NCBI GenBank assembly: GCA_008636095.1
Contig: VSJD01000272.1
Location: forward strand, 1 to 10,000
DNA: 10,000 bases
Reading direction: 5' to 3'
Source: Kiritimatiellota bacterium
GTDB lineage: Bacteria; Verrucomicrobiota; Kiritimatiellia; JAAZAB01
Shown here piece after piece: positions 2,212 to 10,000 of the stretch. The notes beneath the pieces were generated by a model. It ran no database searches and had not been told where the DNA came from. It saw only the letters and a program-made list of their open reading frames with translations. Position 1 is the first letter of the stretch; every line of letters begins with the position of its first letter. The position numbers and the translations under genes were made by a program.

Positions 2212-4356
2212 TTACTGCACGGGGGTCCAGCCAGGCCCACCCCAAGCGCCACCTTGGTTGAGGAGGATTCCGTTCACCAACGAGTAGATGGACCAATAGC
2301 CTTCACGATACACGGCCAAGTCGGACTTACCGTCACCGTCATAGTCCCCTCGCACCGGGGTCCAGTTCGACCCGCCCCACACGCCACCGTTAAGCATGAT
2401 CATTCCGTTCGCCAACGAGTAGATTGACCAATAGCCGTGACTGTAAACGGTCAGGTCGGACTTGCCGTCACCGTCATAGTCCCCTGATACCGGGGTCCAG
2501 CTCGCCCCACCCCATTCGCCAGCGTTGAGCAGGATCATTCCGTTCGCCAACGAGTAGATCGACCAATAGCCGGCACTATACACGGCCAGGTCGGACTTAC
2601 CGTCACCGTCATAGTCCCCGGGCACCGGGGTCCAGTTCGCCCCACCCCATTCGCCAGCGTTGAGCAGAATGATTCCGTTCGCCAACGAGTAGATTGACCA
2701 ATAGCCGTGACTGTACACGGCCAGGTCGGACTTGCCGTCCCCGTCATAATCCCCTGACACCGGAGTCCAGTTCGCCCCACCCCATTCGCCAGCGTTGAGC
2801 AGGATCATTCCGTTCACCAACGAGTAGATTGACCAATAGCCGTGACGATACACGGCCAAGTCGGCCTGACCGTCACCGTCATAGTCACCTGGCACCGTGA
2901 TGTATTCAGCCCCGCCCCATTCGCCAACGTTGTTGAGGATGGTTCCGTTCGCCAACGAGTAGATGGTCCAATAGCCGTGACGATACACGGCCAGATCGGT
3001 CTTGCCGTCTCCGTCATAGTCCCCAAATACGTCCGTAGCAATCACTCCCATTTGAGCGGCAACGGGACTATGGAAAGTAAAGGTCAACCGCGTTTCGAAG
3101 CCGGAATCACCGTTGGTGCCGCTGTTATAGGCATAAACGATGTTCGTGCCGCCGGCAATCCGGGTAAATTCCGTCGTCACTTCAGTGGTGTCTCCTTCAC
3201 TGACGTTATTGGAAGTGTAATGCGTGACATAGCCTGCGAGCAAGTTGGTCGCTCGGTCCACAGGAACGCCCCACTCGGCCAGCAGTGTGTCAGAGATAAA
3301 GGCCTTGAGATAACTGGTGGTATTGCTTTGGCCATTCACCTTCAGACCTATGCCCGCACGGCCGCCGCCAATGTCGCCGACTTCCGGGCTCACATCCATG
3401 TAATGCGCGGTGGTGCACATGATCATGCCTTCCATAAACGCCGCATCATTGGTATCCGCCACGAACAAGGGCGCACAACCAACGTGCGCCTGGTAATTCG
3501 TCGTGTCTCCACTACGCCACGGCTGGCAACTAAGGACATCCGTTTCCAGAATGCCTTCTCCAGCCGGATTGGTTGCCACGGTCGGCGTCCATACAAAGCG
3601 CTCTATTTCGCCAAAGCCCATCAAACTGGTCGGGCGCGCATGCAGGGTCATGTTAAACCGGAACGGCGTGCCGTTCGTCCGATACGCGCCGGTATCCATG
3701 TAGGCCTTTTCTTGTTCTTCTGCATTCATTTCGGCAGTGATCGTCACACCCGTCGGGTTGTTCATGAGGTTGCATCCGATACTGACCGAGCCGACATTCG
3801 TATCCGCAATCTTGATGTTATGAACTGCGACCAGGTTAAGATCAATATTTGTAAACGCCATGTTGGCGTCATAGGCAGTGGGGCTTACATCAGCCGCGAC
3901 TTTCACGCTGTTCATAGTCCCGCCGATTGTCCGGACCACGGTTACGGCAGTGGCGCTTACATCCTGGCTGCCGATCGTCAGGTCCGTTGCGACAACCTGT
4001 ACATTAAAGTCGCCGGTAAAATAAGGATTCCAGGACGTATTAGTCCAAGTACAGATACCTTGCTCCACGTCGTATTTGGGCAACCCGTCTTTCAATGCGG
4101 GAAGAAGAGGAAGGAACGTGAGGACTTCGGGCTGGAACAACTGGCCAATCAGGCCGTTGGTTGACATGACACTGAGCATCACCTGGGCGGGATGTGTGAT
4201 ATCGACTATTTCGATCGTGGCCGTGACCGTCACATTACTACCATCGGCATTCGTGGCCCCAGTAACGATTGGGGTCGAGACCGAAATAGTTACCGTCGCC
4301 TGTGCGCTGATCGCCAATGCCACCAGCAAACCTGTCAGAACGACTACTGTTTTCAT
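2212..4356 (-). CDS. Secreted protein of unknown function with Ig-like N-terminal part and six-repeat Ca-loop C-terminal module
   Basis: A 714-residue protein. Residues 1-20 (MKTVVVLTGLLVALAISAQA) form a Sec signal peptide with likely cleavage after AQA. Residues 21-143 are beta-rich and threonine/valine-rich, reading like one Ig-like or cadherin-like domain. Residues 144-440 are a larger part that I do not recognise; no protease or glycosidase motif was found. It has four cysteines in its middle (Cys195, 277, 294, 314), possibly disulphide-forming. Residues 445-714 are six exact 45-residue units with GDYDGDGKSDLAVY and GYWSIYSL cores; the protein ends at the last unit (GWTPVQ). The start is secured by AGGAGGAG (4368-4361) four bases before the ATG. 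Leader and promoter resemble those of the cysteine protease gene upstream, from which it is separated by 168 bp. The shared tail suggests a third exported effector or binding protein of the same surface set. Confidence 0.85.
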   Translation of the reverse strand: MKTVVVLTGLLVALAISAQATVTISVSTPIVTGATNADGSNVTVTATIEIVDITHPAQVMLSVMSTNGLIGQLFQPEVLTFLPLLPALKDGLPKYDVEQGICTWTNTSWNPYFTGDFNVQVVATDLTIGSQDVSATAVTVVRTIGGTMNSVKVAADVSPTAYDANMAFTNIDLNLVAVHNIKIADTNVGSVSIGCNLMNNPTGVTITAEMNAEEQEKAYMDTGAYRTNGTPFRFNMTLHARPTSLMGFGEIERFVWTPTVATNPAGEGILETDVLSCQPWRSGDTTNYQAHVGCAPLFVADTNDAAFMEGMIMCTTAHYMDVSPEVGDIGGGRAGIGLKVNGQSNTTSYLKAFISDTLLAEWGVPVDRATNLLAGYVTHYTSNNVSEGDTTEVTTEFTRIAGGTNIVYAYNSGTNGDSGFETRLTFTFHSPVAAQMGVIATDVFGDYDGDGKTDLAVYRHGYWTIYSLANGTILNNVGEWGGAEYITVPGDYDGDGQADLAVYRHGYWSIYSLVNGMILLNAGEWGGANWTPVSGDYDGDGKSDLAVYSHGYWSIYSLANGIILLNAGEWGGANWTPVPGDYDGDGKSDLAVYSAGYWSIYSLANGMILLNAGEWGGASWTPVSGDYDGDGKSDLTVYSHGYWSIYSLANGMIMLNGGVWGGSNWTPVRGDYDGDGKSDLAVYREGYWSIYSLVNGILLNQGGAWGGPGWTPVQ
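2215..3024 (-). repeat. Six 135-bp direct repeats encoding the C-terminal module (array A)
   Basis: Six contiguous in-frame units of 135 bp (45 codons) occupy the 3' end of the 714-residue protein gene. Each has D-Y-D-G-D-G-x-x-D, a calcium-loop pattern as in FG-GAP/integrin-type and EF-hand-like loops, then an aromatic segment GYW[ST]IYSL, then NG and [EAV]WGG. Internal units carry SHGYWSIYSL and AGEWGGANWTPV variants, different from the internal units of the other two arrays, so this array is the most diverged. The unit length fits one four-stranded propeller blade and six copies fit a closed propeller, but the fold is inferred. Confidence 0.9.
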
Positions 4357-4360
4357 ACCG

Positions 4361-4368
4361 CTCCTCCT
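4361..4368 (-). promoter_or_regulatory. Ribosome binding site deciding the start of the 714-residue protein
   Basis: AGGAGGAG on the minus strand ends four bases before ATG 4356. It is close to a perfect anti-Shine-Dalgarno match and sits directly before a clear signal peptide, so the start is secure. The equivalent site of the cysteine protease gene has the same spacing. Confidence 0.8.
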
Positions 4369-4421
4369 GGTTGGATTAATTAAACACCGACGTTTCAGAG
4401 GGAAAAGAATCTGCAGCCTTT

Positions 4422-4443
4422 TAAAACGATTCTAAAACGATTC
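4422..4443. repeat. Perfect 11-bp tandem duplication in the exoprotein 5' untranslated region
   Basis: The unit taaaacgattc occurs twice back to back (4422-4432 and 4433-4443). The corresponding place upstream of the cysteine protease gene has a single related copy (taaacaattc), so one copy was gained here or lost there. It lies between the candidate promoter and the ribosome binding site, and could be a binding site or a slippage product. Confidence 0.7.
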
Positions 4444-4458
4444 CTATACTTCTTTTCT

Positions 4459-4488
4459 AAAATAGATTATCCCTGCTAACTATGTCAA
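4459..4488 (-). promoter_or_regulatory. Candidate promoter of the 714-residue exoprotein gene
   Basis: On the minus strand TTGACA (4488-4483) is followed after 18 bases by TATTTT (4464-4459). This predicts a leader of roughly 95 bases. The surrounding sequence, including the GTGTTGAC context and a CCTATACT block (plus strand, around 4443-4450), recurs upstream of the cysteine protease gene, which supports a functional regulatory region. The -10 match is only moderate. Confidence 0.45.
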
Positions 4489-4524
4489 CACTTATTTTCA
4501 TTTATTTTTCAGGCACAGACAATA

Positions 4525-6762
4525 TTAACGCACTGGGGTCCAGTCCGGCCCGCCCCACGCGCCTCCGTTGTTGAGGATGATTCCGTTCGCCAACGAGTAG
4601 ATGGACCAATAACCGGCACGGTAAAAGGCCAGGTCAGACTTGCCGTCACCGTCATAGTCGCCGGGCACCGGGATGGAATCTGCATCGCCCCACGCCCCTC
4701 CGTTGATGAGAATTAATCCGTTCGCCAGCGAGTAGATGGACCAATAGCCGGCATTATACACGGCCAGGTCGGCCTTGCCGTCACCGTCATAGTCACCAGG
4801 CACCGGGATGGAATCTGCATCACCCCACGCGCCTCCGTTGAGCAGAATCATTCCATTCGCCAACGAGTAGATGGACCAATAGCCGGCATTATACACGGCC
4901 AGGTCGGACTTGCCGTCACCGTCATAATCCCCGGACACCGGGATGGAGTCTGTATCGCCCCACGCCCCTCCGTTGATGAGAATTAATCCGTTTGCCAACG
5001 AGTAGATGGACCAATAACCGGCATTATACACGGCCAGGTCAGACATGCCGTCACCGTCGTAGTCGCCGGGCACCGGGATGGAATCCGACCCGCCCCACGC
5101 CCCTCCGTTGATGAGAATTAATCCGTTTACCAGCGAGTAGATCGACCAATAACCGGCATTATACACGGCCAGGTCGGCCTTACCGTCACCGTCATAGTCA
5201 CCGGGCACTGTGGTCCAGCCCGACCCACCCCACGCGCCCCCGTTGAGCAGGATCATTCCGTTCACCAACGAGTAAATGGACCAATAGCCCTCACGGTACG
5301 CGGCCAAGTCAGACTTGCAGTCACCGTCATAGTCGCCGACGACAGTCCGAACATACGCAGCATAAGCTTTGATGCACACGTTGGCAGTGGGATCGTCGGT
5401 TGTCATGTCGCTCCACGAAGTTCCATCTGCGCTCGTGTAACTTTGGCCGGGGGCGGACGTTGCCCGACTGCTGTATCCTGGCCTGGCGTATTCATACGCC
5501 ACCGGGTATGTGTACGAGGAGTTGACGAATTCAATCACCACCGAAAACAACTGGCCGGATGCGAATGTCACCGGCGTGTTCAAGGCAACGGTGTGATAGC
5601 CGGAGTATGCGAAAGTGCCGGTTTGCGTCAACTCCAGGGTCCCGCTCCGGGGACTGCCAGCCGTTATGTTCCGGTAGATATAGATTTTATAATGCATATC
5701 AATATCCGTCGCGTAAAACCCCACGCCGCGCAAGGTTCCGCTGTTCGTGGCGGTAAAAATGTTGGCGCCCCAGGCGTTCGTGGAGCTGTAGCCTGTTTTG
5801 CCTACCATGCCCAGCGGATCGTACTGATAAACCGAGTTGTAATTAGTGACGGCTTCCGCGTTGTTAAATGTCGCATTCTCGTCATAACCCATTTTTGAAT
5901 CATAATAGGAACAGTAGAAATAACCATTGTCGCCCCAGTTCGTGCCCCAACTGTTCCGAACGATGAAAGCGCCGTTCCCGGCCGGGGTTTGCACGAAGTT
6001 TGTGGCGGCATAATTGTCATCCCAGCCGACAATCGCCACGGCATGATCGGAATTTGAGGTGCCGTAATAATAGAATGAGAAATTGGTGGAATTGTAATAT
6101 AAGTTGGTAAAATCGGAGCACATGCTCACATACATGGCGCCATAGTTCACGACCGCCTGTTTGATGGTGGTGTTGTCCAGGGCAGAGGCTTTCAGGGAAA
6201 GAAACAGAACTTCCTGCACGTGTTTCTGCACGGTCAGGTTGGCAGGACTGTGGCCCGGGCCATTGGTGTAGGGATCGTCCACCTCATTAATGGGGCCCGA
6301 CCAGCGCGTCAGGTAGGCCGTGGACATCACCGCATCGCCGCCATTGTTATACAGGTAGTCAAAACCATGATTATTTGCCATATTGTTGACTGAAAAATAG
6401 CGTTCTTCAGCCGGCATCAGGGTGGATTCCAGCGACGAATAAGTGGCAAACGCCCAGCAGGTACCATAGGGATCCTGATCTTTAATGGGCGTCAGCTTGC
6501 CCTGCGTCCGCAGGTCGTAGGATGACGGCAGGGCCCGAAGCGCGCGGGTATGGGCCGGGGTTCGGCCTTTCAGGTAGGAAAAATCCACCGGTGACGGAAT
6601 ATAACCAAGACCATGCCCGTCAACGGTTTTCATGGCGGCTGCCTTTTGGATGCGCTCCTGCTGATACTTAAGAAATGCGGGATTATCCGGCGCATATTGA
6701 AGTTCCTGCGCGCTGATCGTCAATGCCGCCAGCAAACATGTCAGAACGACTGCTGTTTTCAT
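4525..6762 (-). CDS. Secreted papain-like (C1A) cysteine protease with lectin-like domain and six-repeat C-terminal module
   Basis: A 745-residue exported endopeptidase. Residues 1-19 (MKTAVVLTCLLAALTISAQ) are a Sec signal peptide. Residues 20-77 form a short pro-region. The papain fold begins near LPSSYDLR (78) and shows the oxyanion Gln96 and nucleophile Cys102 in KDQDPYGTCWAFA, His240 in SDHAVAIVGWDD, and Asn270 in RNSWGTNWGDNGYF, so all four active-site residues are present. Residues about 305-468 (GVGFYATDIDMHYKIYIY... and ...GQLFSVVIEF) resemble the lectin-like beta domain that follows C1 peptidases in other bacterial secreted proteases. Residues 476-745 are the six 45-residue calcium-loop units, ending PVR. 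The first unit reads DGDCKSD, a Gly-to-Cys change inside the loop. GGGAGGAG (6774-6767) precedes the ATG. It probably acts outside the cell or at its surface in protein degradation; the substrate is unknown. Confidence 0.93.
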   Translation of the reverse strand: MKTAVVLTCLLAALTISAQELQYAPDNPAFLKYQQERIQKAAAMKTVDGHGLGYIPSPVDFSYLKGRTPAHTRALRALPSSYDLRTQGKLTPIKDQDPYGTCWAFATYSSLESTLMPAEERYFSVNNMANNHGFDYLYNNGGDAVMSTAYLTRWSGPINEVDDPYTNGPGHSPANLTVQKHVQEVLFLSLKASALDNTTIKQAVVNYGAMYVSMCSDFTNLYYNSTNFSFYYYGTSNSDHAVAIVGWDDNYAATNFVQTPAGNGAFIVRNSWGTNWGDNGYFYCSYYDSKMGYDENATFNNAEAVTNYNSVYQYDPLGMVGKTGYSSTNAWGANIFTATNSGTLRGVGFYATDIDMHYKIYIYRNITAGSPRSGTLELTQTGTFAYSGYHTVALNTPVTFASGQLFSVVIEFVNSSYTYPVAYEYARPGYSSRATSAPGQSYTSADGTSWSDMTTDDPTANVCIKAYAAYVRTVVGDYDGDCKSDLAAYREGYWSIYSLVNGMILLNGGAWGGSGWTTVPGDYDGDGKADLAVYNAGYWSIYSLVNGLILINGGAWGGSDSIPVPGDYDGDGMSDLAVYNAGYWSIYSLANGLILINGGAWGDTDSIPVSGDYDGDGKSDLAVYNAGYWSIYSLANGMILLNGGAWGDADSIPVPGDYDGDGKADLAVYNAGYWSIYSLANGLILINGGAWGDADSIPVPGDYDGDGKSDLAFYRAGYWSIYSLANGIILNNGGAWGGPDWTPVR
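4528..5337 (-). repeat. Six 135-bp direct repeats encoding the C-terminal module (array B)
   Basis: Six in-frame 135-bp units end the cysteine protease gene. Internal units read NAGYWSIYSL-x-NGLILINGGAWG and DSIPV. The first (5203-5337, REGYWSIYSL and GSGWTTVP) and last (4528-4662, NNGGAWGGPDWTPVR) differ from them and match the first and last units of the serine protease array. By my base count the first units of these two genes differ at 6 of 135 positions and the last units at 11 of 135. Confidence 0.9.
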
Positions 6763-6766
6763 CCTG

Positions 6767-6774
6767 CTCCTCCC
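6767..6774 (-). promoter_or_regulatory. Ribosome binding site of the cysteine protease gene
   Basis: GGGAGGAG on the minus strand ends four bases before the ATG at 6762 and directly precedes the signal peptide, fixing the start. The flanking bases resemble those before the 714-residue protein gene. Confidence 0.8.
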
Positions 6775-6849
6775 GGTTTGATTAACTAAACACCGAAGTT
6801 TACGAAAGAAAGAATCCGTGCCTTTTTAAACAATTCCTATACTATTTCA

Positions 6850-6878
6850 AGCTTATTACCCTCCAAAAACCACGTCAA
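6850..6878 (-). promoter_or_regulatory. Proximal promoter-like site of the cysteine protease gene
   Basis: TTGACG (6878-6873) stands in the same GTGTTGAC context as the promoter of the downstream exoprotein gene. The best -10 at 17 bases is TAAGCT (6855-6850), which is weak; TAATAA (6858-6853) is closer to consensus but the spacing of 14 is too short for a usual sigma70 promoter. Homology to the other regulatory region is the main support. Confidence 0.25.
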
Positions 6879-6922
6879 CACTTATTTCATTTGTTTTTTG
6901 GGGAACCATTGCCTATTTATGG

Positions 6923-6951
6923 TTTAAATCTACCCTCGTCCAGTATGTCAA
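6923..6951 (-). promoter_or_regulatory. Distal candidate promoter of the cysteine protease gene
   Basis: A perfect TTGACA (6951-6946) is followed after 17 bases by TTTAAA (6928-6923). This lies about 160 bases before the ATG and would give a long leader that passes through the proximal site. Together with 4459-4488 and 6850-6878 it forms a recurring GTTGAC...GGGTA-like block. Confidence 0.4.
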
Positions 6952-7083
6952 CATCTTTTTTAGATTTCTTTCTTGATAATGTTTAGTCTATGGGAAGAGC
7001 GAAAAATACGCTATTGGCAAAACCTGATTCGGGTGTAGGAGGAAACACTACAGGAATGGCGGATTGCCTGCCCTGCCTGTCCG

Positions 7084-7163
7084 CCGACGTGTCCTCCGAC
7101 GTGTCCGGCGAAGCCTTGGCGAAGACGGAAGCCTTGGCGAAGACGGGAGCTTTGGCGAAGATG
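7084..7163. repeat. GC-rich compound tandem repeat (12-bp and 18-bp units), possible interspersed element
   Basis: Two 12-bp units ccgacgtgtcc[tg] (7084-7095, 7096-7107) are followed by 18-bp units gaagccttggcgaagacg at 7110-7127 and 7128-7145 (identical) and a diverged third copy at 7146-7163. Both unit lengths are multiples of three, so the array stays open in several frames on both strands. The ggcgaagccttggcga-type core contains short self-complementary stretches. It is reminiscent of the short interspersed repeats common in intergenic DNA of some environmental bacteria; that comparison is recollection only. Confidence 0.75.
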
Positions 7164-7333
7164 GGAGCGGAGTTGAAGAGCGGACTTATCCACACACAAT
7201 ATCTGGTGGCAGGCATTCCTCCGTCGTCCTGGGGATTCAGATGGTTATAGAAAATATACCCCTCAATCCGTGCCGCCGGCAACTCGTTACGGAACGAACG
7301 CATACGGGCGGGTGAAAACATCCACAGACAACA

Positions 7334-10000
7334 TTAACGCACGGGAGTCCAGTCCGGCCCGCCCCACGCGCCTCCGTTGTTGAGGATGATTCCGTTCGCC
7401 AACGAATAGATGGACCAATACCCGGCACGATACACCGTCAGGTCAGACTTGCCGTCACCATCATAGTCACCGGGCACCGGGATGGAATCCGACCCGCCCC
7501 AGACACCACCGTTGATGAGAATTAATCCGTTTACCAACGAGTAGATGGACCAATAACCGGCATTATACACGGCCAAGTCGGCCTTGCCGTCACCGTCATA
7601 GTCCCCGGGCACCGGGATGGAATCTGCATCGCCCCACACGCCTCCGTTGATGAGAATTAATCCGTTCGCCAGCGAGTAGATGGACCAATAGCCGGCATTA
7701 TACACGGCCAAGTCGGCCTTGCCGTCACCGTCATAGTCCCCAGACACCGGGATGTAATCTGCATCGCCCCACACGCCTCCGTTGATAAGAATTAATCCGT
7801 TCACCAATGAGTAGATGGACCAATACCCGGCATTATACACGGCCAGGTCAGACTTGCCGTCACCGTCATAGTCCCCGGGCACCGGAATGGAATCTGCATC
7901 GCCCCACGCGCCTCCGTTGATGAGAATTAATCCGTTTACCAGCGAGTAGATGGACCAATAGCCGGCATTATACACAGCCAGATCAGCCTTGCCGTCACCG
8001 TCATAGTCACCGGGCACTGTGGTCCAGCCCGACCCGCCCCACGCGCCTTCGTTGAGCAGGATCATTCCGTTCACCAACGAGTAAATGGACCAATAGCCCT
8101 CACGGTACGCGGCCAAGTCAGACTTGCCGTCACCATCATAGTCCCCGATTACCACCGCAGGTGTGGGAGCGGATTCATGGATCACCAAAGCATAAGGCTG
8201 GGGTCCGTTTGGCACGTTGTATCCGCTGACTCTGATCTGAATCGTTCCAGGGGTGACGGAAGACACATCAACGCCTTCCACATTGTTGAGCCGATCGGCA
8301 CTTGTCAATCCATTAGGATAATGAACGACGCCATCGGGCATTGTAACCGTCAAATCCAGATCATTGACCAACTGTTCCGAAGCCGAGAGACTGGCCGGAT
8401 AATCGGACCAACACAGCGTGATGCTGAGGCGGTTGGTTCCGGAGGGGATAAACGAGTACTCCTTGGTGACCCCCGTGACTATGGCGTCAACCGAGTTTGT
8501 CATATCATAATATGCATTGGTCCGACCCGATGAAGGAAAGAGGGTGTTGACCAAGTCCACCTGGCCCCAGCCTTCGACATTGTTTGGCCGCGTGCCCGGT
8601 ATCTCGAGATACTGACCCCAGCCGTACTGACCCGGTGACAGGGAACGGGCACCATTGACCATGACCGCTTTCATTAAGGCTGCGCTGGGCGCGGCAAAGC
8701 CGCGATACTCCTGAAGATACTGGCGCACCAAAGCGGCCGCTCCAGCTGTCAATGGCGTGGACATACTCGTGCCGCCGCAAAACGTATAATAATTGCTGGC
8801 GGCATTAGCCAGCACCCCGTCGCCCGTGCCCCATAACGTTTCCGCCCCCGGCATGCTGGAACGACAGGAAATGATATCCGTGCCCGGCGCCACGATATCG
8901 GGCTTGAACCGCCCGTCAACACACGGGCCGCGACTGGAGAAGGCCGCCATGCCCTGGTATGTGTCAAAAGCGGTGGAGATCAAGTCGTTACGGATCGGAT
9001 CGACGGGATAATAAACAAGCCAGCTCCCCGTGCCGTAAACATAGGCCGAATAGCCGCCCGATCCGGAAGGTCGCTTGGACTCGGCCGCGCCCACGGTCAT
9101 CACATTCTTGGCCGTGCCGGGCGCACCGATCGCGGTTGCATCAATCACGCCATTACCGTCTGCATCTTTGCCGCTATTGCCGGCAGAGAACAGGACGAGC
9201 ATGTCCCTGACATCCCACATAAACTGGTCGGCGCTTTGGGAGTCAACGGTATATTCCCCATAAACGGAAGACCCCCAACTATCGGTATGGATCCGCGCGC
9301 CCCCGGCATAGGCTTGCCAAAAAAGATTGGTTAATTCGTCGGGAATACCCCCCAGATGTCCGCCACTATCCATGATACTTTGCATCACCAGCGATGCTTC
9401 ATAGGCCGCACCCCGGAACAAACCGTTACTCCAGGCCGCGCCACTGCCCAACACAGATCCGGCCACATGCGTGCCATGCCCACCATTCGTGGTTGAATCG
9501 GACCAGTCATTGCTGCGGCCCAAGGCAAAGGCGGCGATGACACGGTTGCTGAAATCCGGGTGAATAGTGTTGGTATTGCCGGTGTCCAAGCCCGTATCGG
9601 CCACGCACACGACTTGTCCTGAACCCGTAAGATTATAGTTGGTCCACAGGCTTTGCACATTCATGTGTTCACTATCTGTAGCCACATTGTTGTGCAGTTG
9701 CGGCACAACATAGACCTCGATGAATTCGACTTCGGGCAAGCCCAGGATTTCGGACGCGCTTGCCACGGACATTCGGACGCGCAGCAATCCACGGCGCCCG
9801 CTGGACGCAACCGACATGACCTGCCCATTTAGGCCCAGGACGGCATCCCGCACCACGGAAACCGCTTCGGAAGAAAAGGTCTGGATCGTAAAGGTCTCAT
9901 CCGATACTGCGACAGGACCGAAAGGGTTCCGCGCCCCGGCAACCCGGCGGCTTAGCGTGGGATCTATTTTGTAATCCGGTTTAAATGGACCTATCCACTG
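7334..10000 (-). CDS. Subtilisin-like S8 serine protease (Kp43-type) with beta-barrel domain and six-repeat C-terminal module (5' end outside window)
   Basis: The frame is open from the right edge to TAA at 7336-7334; 888 residues are visible and the true start lies beyond position 10000 (the GTG at 9856 is internal). Counting from the first visible codon, residues 1 to about 104 are pro-domain, beginning QWIGPFKPDYKIDP. The catalytic domain shows Asp135 in VADTGLDTGN, His175 in GGHGTHVAGS, the oxyanion Asn275 in FSAGNSG and Ser412 in CGGTSMSTP, so the triad is intact. Residues about 498-610 (SITLCWSDYPAS, LVNDLDLTVTMPDG, NNVEGVDV, YNVPNGPQPYALVIHE) match the C-terminal beta-barrel of Kp43-type alkaline subtilisins, which binds calcium in that family. 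Residues 619-888 are the six 45-residue units. It should be an exported, probably calcium-stabilised endoprotease. The signal peptide cannot be seen. Confidence 0.94.
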   Translation of the reverse strand, partial: QWIGPFKPDYKIDPTLSRRVAGARNPFGPVAVSDETFTIQTFSSEAVSVVRDAVLGLNGQVMSVASSGRRGLLRVRMSVASASEILGLPEVEFIEVYVVPQLHNNVATDSEHMNVQSLWTNYNLTGSGQVVCVADTGLDTGNTNTIHPDFSNRVIAAFALGRSNDWSDSTTNGGHGTHVAGSVLGSGAAWSNGLFRGAAYEASLVMQSIMDSGGHLGGIPDELTNLFWQAYAGGARIHTDSWGSSVYGEYTVDSQSADQFMWDVRDMLVLFSAGNSGKDADGNGVIDATAIGAPGTAKNVMTVGAAESKRPSGSGGYSAYVYGTGSWLVYYPVDPIRNDLISTAFDTYQGMAAFSSRGPCVDGRFKPDIVAPGTDIISCRSSMPGAETLWGTGDGVLANAASNYYTFCGGTSMSTPLTAGAAALVRQYLQEYRGFAAPSAALMKAVMVNGARSLSPGQYGWGQYLEIPGTRPNNVEGWGQVDLVNTLFPSSGRTNAYYDMTNSVDAIVTGVTKEYSFIPSGTNRLSITLCWSDYPASLSASEQLVNDLDLTVTMPDGVVHYPNGLTSADRLNNVEGVDVSSVTPGTIQIRVSGYNVPNGPQPYALVIHESAPTPAVVIGDYDGDGKSDLAAYREGYWSIYSLVNGMILLNEGAWGGSGWTTVPGDYDGDGKADLAVYNAGYWSIYSLVNGLILINGGAWGDADSIPVPGDYDGDGKSDLAVYNAGYWSIYSLVNGLILINGGVWGDADYIPVSGDYDGDGKADLAVYNAGYWSIYSLANGLILINGGVWGDADSIPVPGDYDGDGKADLAVYNAGYWSIYSLVNGLILINGGVWGGSDSIPVPGDYDGDGKSDLTVYRAGYWSIYSLANGIILNNGGAWGGPDWTPVR
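7337..8146 (-). repeat. Six 135-bp direct repeats encoding the C-terminal module (array C)
   Basis: Six in-frame 135-bp units end the serine protease gene. Unit order (REGYWSIYSL first, four NAGYWSIYSL internal units, RAGYWSIYSL with GGPDWTPVR last) is the same as in the cysteine protease array, and DNA similarity is high, so the whole array was copied or homogenised between the genes. All six loops keep D-Y-D-G-D-G-K-[SA]-D. Confidence 0.9.

Follow-up and report, generated by a model that had tools for sequence, protein, structure and literature searches.

Three adjacent, co-oriented genes on a 10,000-nucleotide stretch of a Kiritimatiellota bacterium (contig VSJD01000272.1 of assembly GCA_008636095.1; hereafter the window, a 10-kb piece of a draft genome that totals 3.8 Mb over 357 pieces) encode proteins that end in the same six-unit tail. 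We propose, with a probability of roughly 0.55 for the explanation as a whole, that this tail is a beta-propeller that holds exported proteins on a glycan and that has been copied between genes as a cassette. The fold is a known one; its setting is that of many unrelated proteins, of gene-to-gene copying and of a bacterial family seemingly without the usual sorting tag. Below, "passenger" denotes the protein part before the tail, and C85, C291 and similar designations are other contigs of the same genome.

As an earlier note on this stretch had proposed, each of the three minus-strand open reading frames (ORFs) ends in exactly six units at a 45-residue pitch. Counted from the last GDYDGD, the stop codon comes after 45 residues. 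The tail is 273 residues long rather than the 270 given in the note, comprising the six units and a final PVR or PVQ. The DxDxDGxxD calcium-loop pattern and the aromatic core, described as GYWSIYSL and found here as GYW[ST]IYSL, are both present in 18/18 units, with C replacing the second G of the loop in unit 1 of the papain-type protein. An alignment of 14 tails contains no gap at all, and its loop D and G columns are invariant or nearly so. The suspected likeness to FG-GAP repeats was borne out, as PF01839 and PF13517 match all three proteins directly, PF13517 with 73.8, 50.7 and 62.2 bits (cut-off 26.9). The subtilisin (Peptidase_S8, 1.3e-45) and the papain-like protease (Peptidase_C1, 3.9e-25) had been recognized correctly, the latter without its Lectin_like domain (1e-53); in the remaining protein (2212-4356) the two FG-GAP families are the sole Pfam matches.

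The predicted model of tail 2 forms a closed ring of beta-blades of the VCBS-like type (PF13517/PF01839), and its closest structural match is six-bladed. Judged by this model, the 273-residue tail is almost certainly a closed VCBS-type six-bladed beta-propeller, and the note's guess at the fold appears right in essentials. Each of the six blades would carry a DxDxDG metal loop, and the ring would be closed in velcro fashion by a C-terminal T-P-V strand that may itself serve as the innermost strand of blade 1.

In UmbA4, the lectin of a Streptomyces umbrella toxin (PDB 9oee), the propeller is likewise C-terminal and six-bladed, as predicted for the tail, but the six blades span 350-701 as against 273 residues. 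Trypsin-like and bulb-lectin domains precede the UmbA4 propeller, whereas the window passengers are S8, C1 and a protein of no family, and a foreign glycan ligand is established for it: the propeller pockets bind a polymer resembling teichuronic acid on the surface of target cells (PMC13274773). The sugar-contact residues of the UmbA lectin are W668, Y551 and N633. PVL-type fungal lectins (2bwr, 4up4, 5mb4) are stand-alone lectins, and the FG-GAP propeller of alpha-integrins, which has the calcium-loop motif and the FG-GAP Pfam name in common with the tail, is N-terminal in its protein. Both are described as having seven blades (PMC8023676), unlike the tail with its six units and six-bladed best match. 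The highly repetitive VCBS propellers of Pereira and Lupas (2022; PMC9218822) resemble the tail in their amplified near-identical blades and in their median of six, a number already published there. The propellers described in that paper change blade number in a protein-specific manner (3, 4, 6 and 9 in one group), whereas in the tail six predominates and whole tails are common to unrelated genes. The C-terminal domains of the PEP-CTERM/exosortase system and of the type IX secretion system (T9SS) are likewise single modules on many unrelated exported proteins; no sequence relation between them and the tail was seen, and neither signal was detected in the family.

The copy number of the tail is quantised, with exceptions. 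A unit profile, run over the stretches of the own genome that were fetched, detected 44 ORFs with at least one unit, 27 of them with exactly six; among the 17 tails at 45-residue pitch that reach the stop and keep upstream sequence, 14 have six units and the others five (C294 and C168) or two (C301). Two remnants (C291:8888-9040 and C83:9709-9786) and six tails cut by contig ends lie outside this count of 17. In high-scoring stretches from five of the ten family genomes, 35 complete ORFs carry three units or more; 27 of them have six, and in 34 the last unit lies within 25 residues of the C-terminus. A homologue search scored 7993 candidates, of which 7657 matched at E <= 1e-3; the 120 best by bit score, a choice biased towards many units, have 4 (1 protein), 5 (7), 6 (27), 10 (1), 11 (2), 12 (73), 13 (7), 14 (1) or 16 units (1), and none has 7, 8 or 9. 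Nine of these 120 came without a source, and eight of the nine match own-genome proteins. The longest spacing (at least 53 residues) follows the sixth unit in 59 of the 73 twelve-unit homologues, as expected of two six-unit blocks. Named genomes of Kiritimatiellae, Lentisphaerae, Acidobacteria and others gave 80 complete ORFs, ranked, like the 120 homologues, by a six-unit query that favours six or more: 65 carry six units and 6 carry twelve, seven units occur in 3, and the remaining 6 have 3, 4, 16 or 17; the ORF ends within 25 residues past the last unit in 69. The fixed number claimed in the note has to be read as a predominance of six, given five- and two-unit tails and a five-unit public protein (P0008), with counts of 3, 4, 5, 7, 12, 16 and 17 elsewhere, and the C-terminal position that it expected throughout also has its exceptions. 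Two ORFs of L090 (816-2021 and 5039-7855) with four units each, beside a six-unit ORF, are counter-examples to six. A contig scan with the whole third protein as query found no relative.

As judged by Pfam, the own-genome passengers have no enzymatic theme in common: among them are a subtilase, a papain, proteins of the beta-lactamase-fold (two), RCC1 (four) and DUF5122 (two) types, one metallophosphoesterase and one Calx-beta protein, and several match no family. Tails of greater divergence are found on one caspase-like and one thermolysin-type protein, and the passengers in the five related genomes are mixed too (34 of 35 ORFs scanned). Attachment to varied hydrolases, as the note anticipated, was seen, with RCC1, DUF5122 and no-family proteins in addition. 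The caspase-like (Peptidase_C14) protein at L050 (C235) 2574-5783 carries a diverged six-unit tail.

At the DNA level, whole tails are 72-92% identical between genes, whereas most of their passengers are unrelated or have diverged much further; two C85 passengers, for example, have 41% amino-acid identity and tails with 91% DNA identity. Common DNA in the 150 bases 5' of unit 1 was found in 4/91 gene pairs, all with homologous passengers. The flank 3' of the stop is common to 24/91 pairs, 22 of which are among the 82 pairs without homologous passengers, and 9/14 tails take part in these matches; in control 3' flanks, taken from stop-to-stop ORFs of at least 250 residues that are not all real genes, the figure is 1/6903 pairs. 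A search of the own genome with the flank core gave 15 matches. Ten of these, with at most one mismatch, lie just 3' of a tail stop (in one case that of a tail remnant), and the five with two mismatches are located elsewhere; a general dispersed repeat as the source of the flank was rejected, since the ten best matches all follow tail stops or the remnant. Because the flank is common to genes with unrelated passengers, tail and flank appear to have been copied together onto different genes, and 3' cassette copying is, on these comparisons, a probable account. Units are also homogenised within proteins: for 34 of the 84 units the nearest neighbour is another unit of that protein, for 32 it is the equally placed unit of a different protein, and for 18 it lies elsewhere. 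The ratio of nonsynonymous to synonymous substitution rates (dN/dS) of 0.11-0.39 indicates purifying selection on the tails. At C291 (L038) 8858-9040 lies a decayed tail remnant with one in-frame stop and the 3' flank still attached. The passengers of L048 (C301, 5542-6606) and L060 (C260, 5320-7791) are 55% identical over 262 residues; L048 ends in two 45-residue-type units, and in L060 about 210 more residues come after a diverged block of six units, which makes the pair a candidate tail swap.

We compared the 10 genomes of the family with 48 other genomes of its class. Tail matches, which may be pieces of tails and come from at most 43 scored candidates per genome, number 16-49 in each of the 10 family genomes, and any match occurs in 9/48 others. 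PEP-CTERM signals are present in 0/10 family genomes versus 43/48 others, and exosortase in 1/10 versus 45/48, the sole family match (G003:C20:41232-41696) being partial (model 100-251) at 35.7 bits, above the Pfam cut-off. The own genome (87% complete) gave no exosortase match. Class-wide, at a completeness of at least 80%, exosortase occurs in 1/7 family genomes versus 232/241 others, and tails in 7/7 versus 27/241. Nine other class-wide genomes lack exosortase and belong to families in which other members have it; in this sample, therefore, only the own family is without a full-length match throughout. As candidates for the route taken by the tails, PEP-CTERM was rejected because no signal is present in the 10 family genomes, and T9SS because the Por tail (TIGR04183) occurs in 0/10. 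Open-access papers yielded no literature on FG-GAP or VCBS proteins in Kiritimatiellae, and none of the matches listed for PEP-CTERM/exosortase in the open-access literature mentions Kiritimatiell.

Based on these observations, we propose that: (i) in this family the propeller forms the final folded domain of many exported proteins, whose export would be by Sec and perhaps by type II secretion; (ii) it would keep proteases, other enzymes and proteins without catalytic activity attached to a glycan, most likely a surface or matrix polymer of the cell itself; and (iii) tails have spread between genes as DNA, together with the 3' flank, and are maintained by purifying selection, as the sequence comparisons indicate. 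The glycan could be contacted through the ring pockets, similar to sugar binding by the UmbA4 and PVL propellers, and the published accounts generally tie VCBS propellers to carbohydrate or protein recognition (PMC8023676, PMC9218822). Since the passengers have no common enzymatic theme, the simplest reading is a common ligand such as a glycan of the cell's own surface or matrix, and the analysis gives tethering to that glycan slightly under even odds. Several observations weigh against our proposal. At about 40% identity, the same arrangement at the C-terminus is found in Acidobacteria and other groups, which does not indicate one common ligand. GspD is present in all 58 genomes, with type II secretion the same in tail-rich and tail-free ones, and the signal-peptide heuristic is also positive in 21/38 and 14/31 control ORFs. 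The Foldseek superposition on UmbA4 is loose (template modelling score 0.59, root-mean-square deviation 7.6); the first AlphaFold2 (AF2) model, with 14 close paralogues, was weaker (predicted local distance difference test score 80.7, other models down to 36.3), and its best match was to seven-bladed lectins. Copy number varies in the own genome (2, 5 and 11 units among other counts), in relatives (3, 4, 5 and 7) and in other genomes (3, 4, 7, 16 and 17), and P0008, at 99.3% identity to the C85 gene 6943-9963, has five units, showing that close variants can lose a unit.

The tail could instead bind a substrate or prey polysaccharide, acting as a carbohydrate-binding module through which hydrolases reach their target. 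Carbohydrate recognition is described as typical of VCBS propellers (PMC9218822, PMC8023676), the glycans bound by the UmbA4 propeller belong to other cells (PMC13274773) and several passengers are hydrolases; closely similar tails on passengers that range from proteases and beta-lactamase-fold proteins to RCC1 propellers, DUF5122 propellers and no-family proteins make a single substrate improbable, and we regard this explanation as unlikely. Still less likely is a true sorting signal for a dedicated export or anchoring machine that replaced exosortase/PEP-CTERM in the family. The near-complete absence of PEP-CTERM and exosortase from the family, within the sample and class-wide, the tails in 10/10 versus 9/48 genomes and the near-terminal position of the tails in relatives (34/35 ORFs, at most 25 residues away) all agree with such a signal. 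The family is, however, one clade and represents at most one evolutionary event; tail-rich genomes elsewhere (G025, G048 and G039) also have exosortase, so that the contrast gives a hypothesis and not a correlation. In G037, without exosortase, only 3 tail matches were found; elsewhere such propellers commonly sit at the C-terminus (69/80), and the machines looked for were the type II secretion system, T9SS and exosortase only. A looser version, that the family lost exosortase/PEP-CTERM and uses the cassette-copied lectin propeller as a general retention or sorting tag instead, is scarcely more probable. Common 3' flanks, homogenisation within proteins (34/84 units) and the decayed remnant (C291:8888-9040) with its one stop would also fit neutral gene conversion of repeat-rich 3' ends, spreading a harmless stabilising cap without a common adaptive job. 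The dN/dS values, the gap-free alignment, the predominance of six units and the tails in 10/10 family genomes make that account very improbable.

Table 1. Coordinates of tail genes and associated features in the window
Feature	Position	Strand	Basis
Protein 1, secreted-type, 714 aa: passenger without Pfam family and C-terminal six-unit tail	2212..4356	-	ORF; Pfam
Tail 1: six 45-aa units, then PVQ, stop codon	2212..3033	-	unit spacing and alignment
Protein 1 signal-like N-terminus MKTVVVLTGLLVALAISAQA	4297..4356	-	hydrophobicity heuristic only
Protein 2, 745 aa: papain-family protease, Lectin_like domain and six-unit tail	4525..6762	-	ORF; Pfam
Tail 2: six units, then PVR, stop; sequence used for folding	4525..5346	-	unit spacing and alignment
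Protein 2 signal-like N-terminus MKTAVVLTCLLAALTISAQE, resembling that of protein 1	6703..6762	-	hydrophobicity heuristic only
Noncoding DNA 3' of subtilase stop, common to tail genes with unrelated passengers	7304..7333	-	flank comparison
Protein 3: subtilase (S8) and six-unit tail; 5' end outside window	7334..10000	-	ORF open at contig-piece end; Pfam
Tail 3: six units, then PVR, stop	7334..8155	-	unit spacing and alignment

Contig C85 starts with an ORF that is open towards the window and has a signal-like N-terminus, and therefore most likely continues the subtilase gene. It carries three more tail genes, co-oriented, which would make six tail genes consecutively. Downstream, the tail genes are adjoined by a membrane protein of the Wzy_C/O-antigen-ligase type (2-2107). 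It matches PEP_O_lig_1, a ligase associated with exosortase, weakly and below the cut-off; this genome gave no exosortase match. An inverted repeat of 19 pairs (2152-2194), possibly a terminator, separates protein 1 from the ligase gene. A tandem repeat of about 18 bases, GCCTTGGCGAAGACGGAA, at 7080-7170 is a dispersed repeat found in about 20 places of the own genome (20 matches with at most two mismatches from the typed pattern).

The family offers a concrete, testable case of unrelated secreted proteins tagged with one folded module that spreads by DNA copying past the stop codon. If PEP-CTERM/exosortase was indeed exchanged for a lectin propeller, this would be a new solution to surface retention, a sorting system built on a glycan-binding ring instead of a short peptide signal, and it would suggest a use for the very large set of proteins annotated as "VCBS repeat-containing" (7657 matches here).
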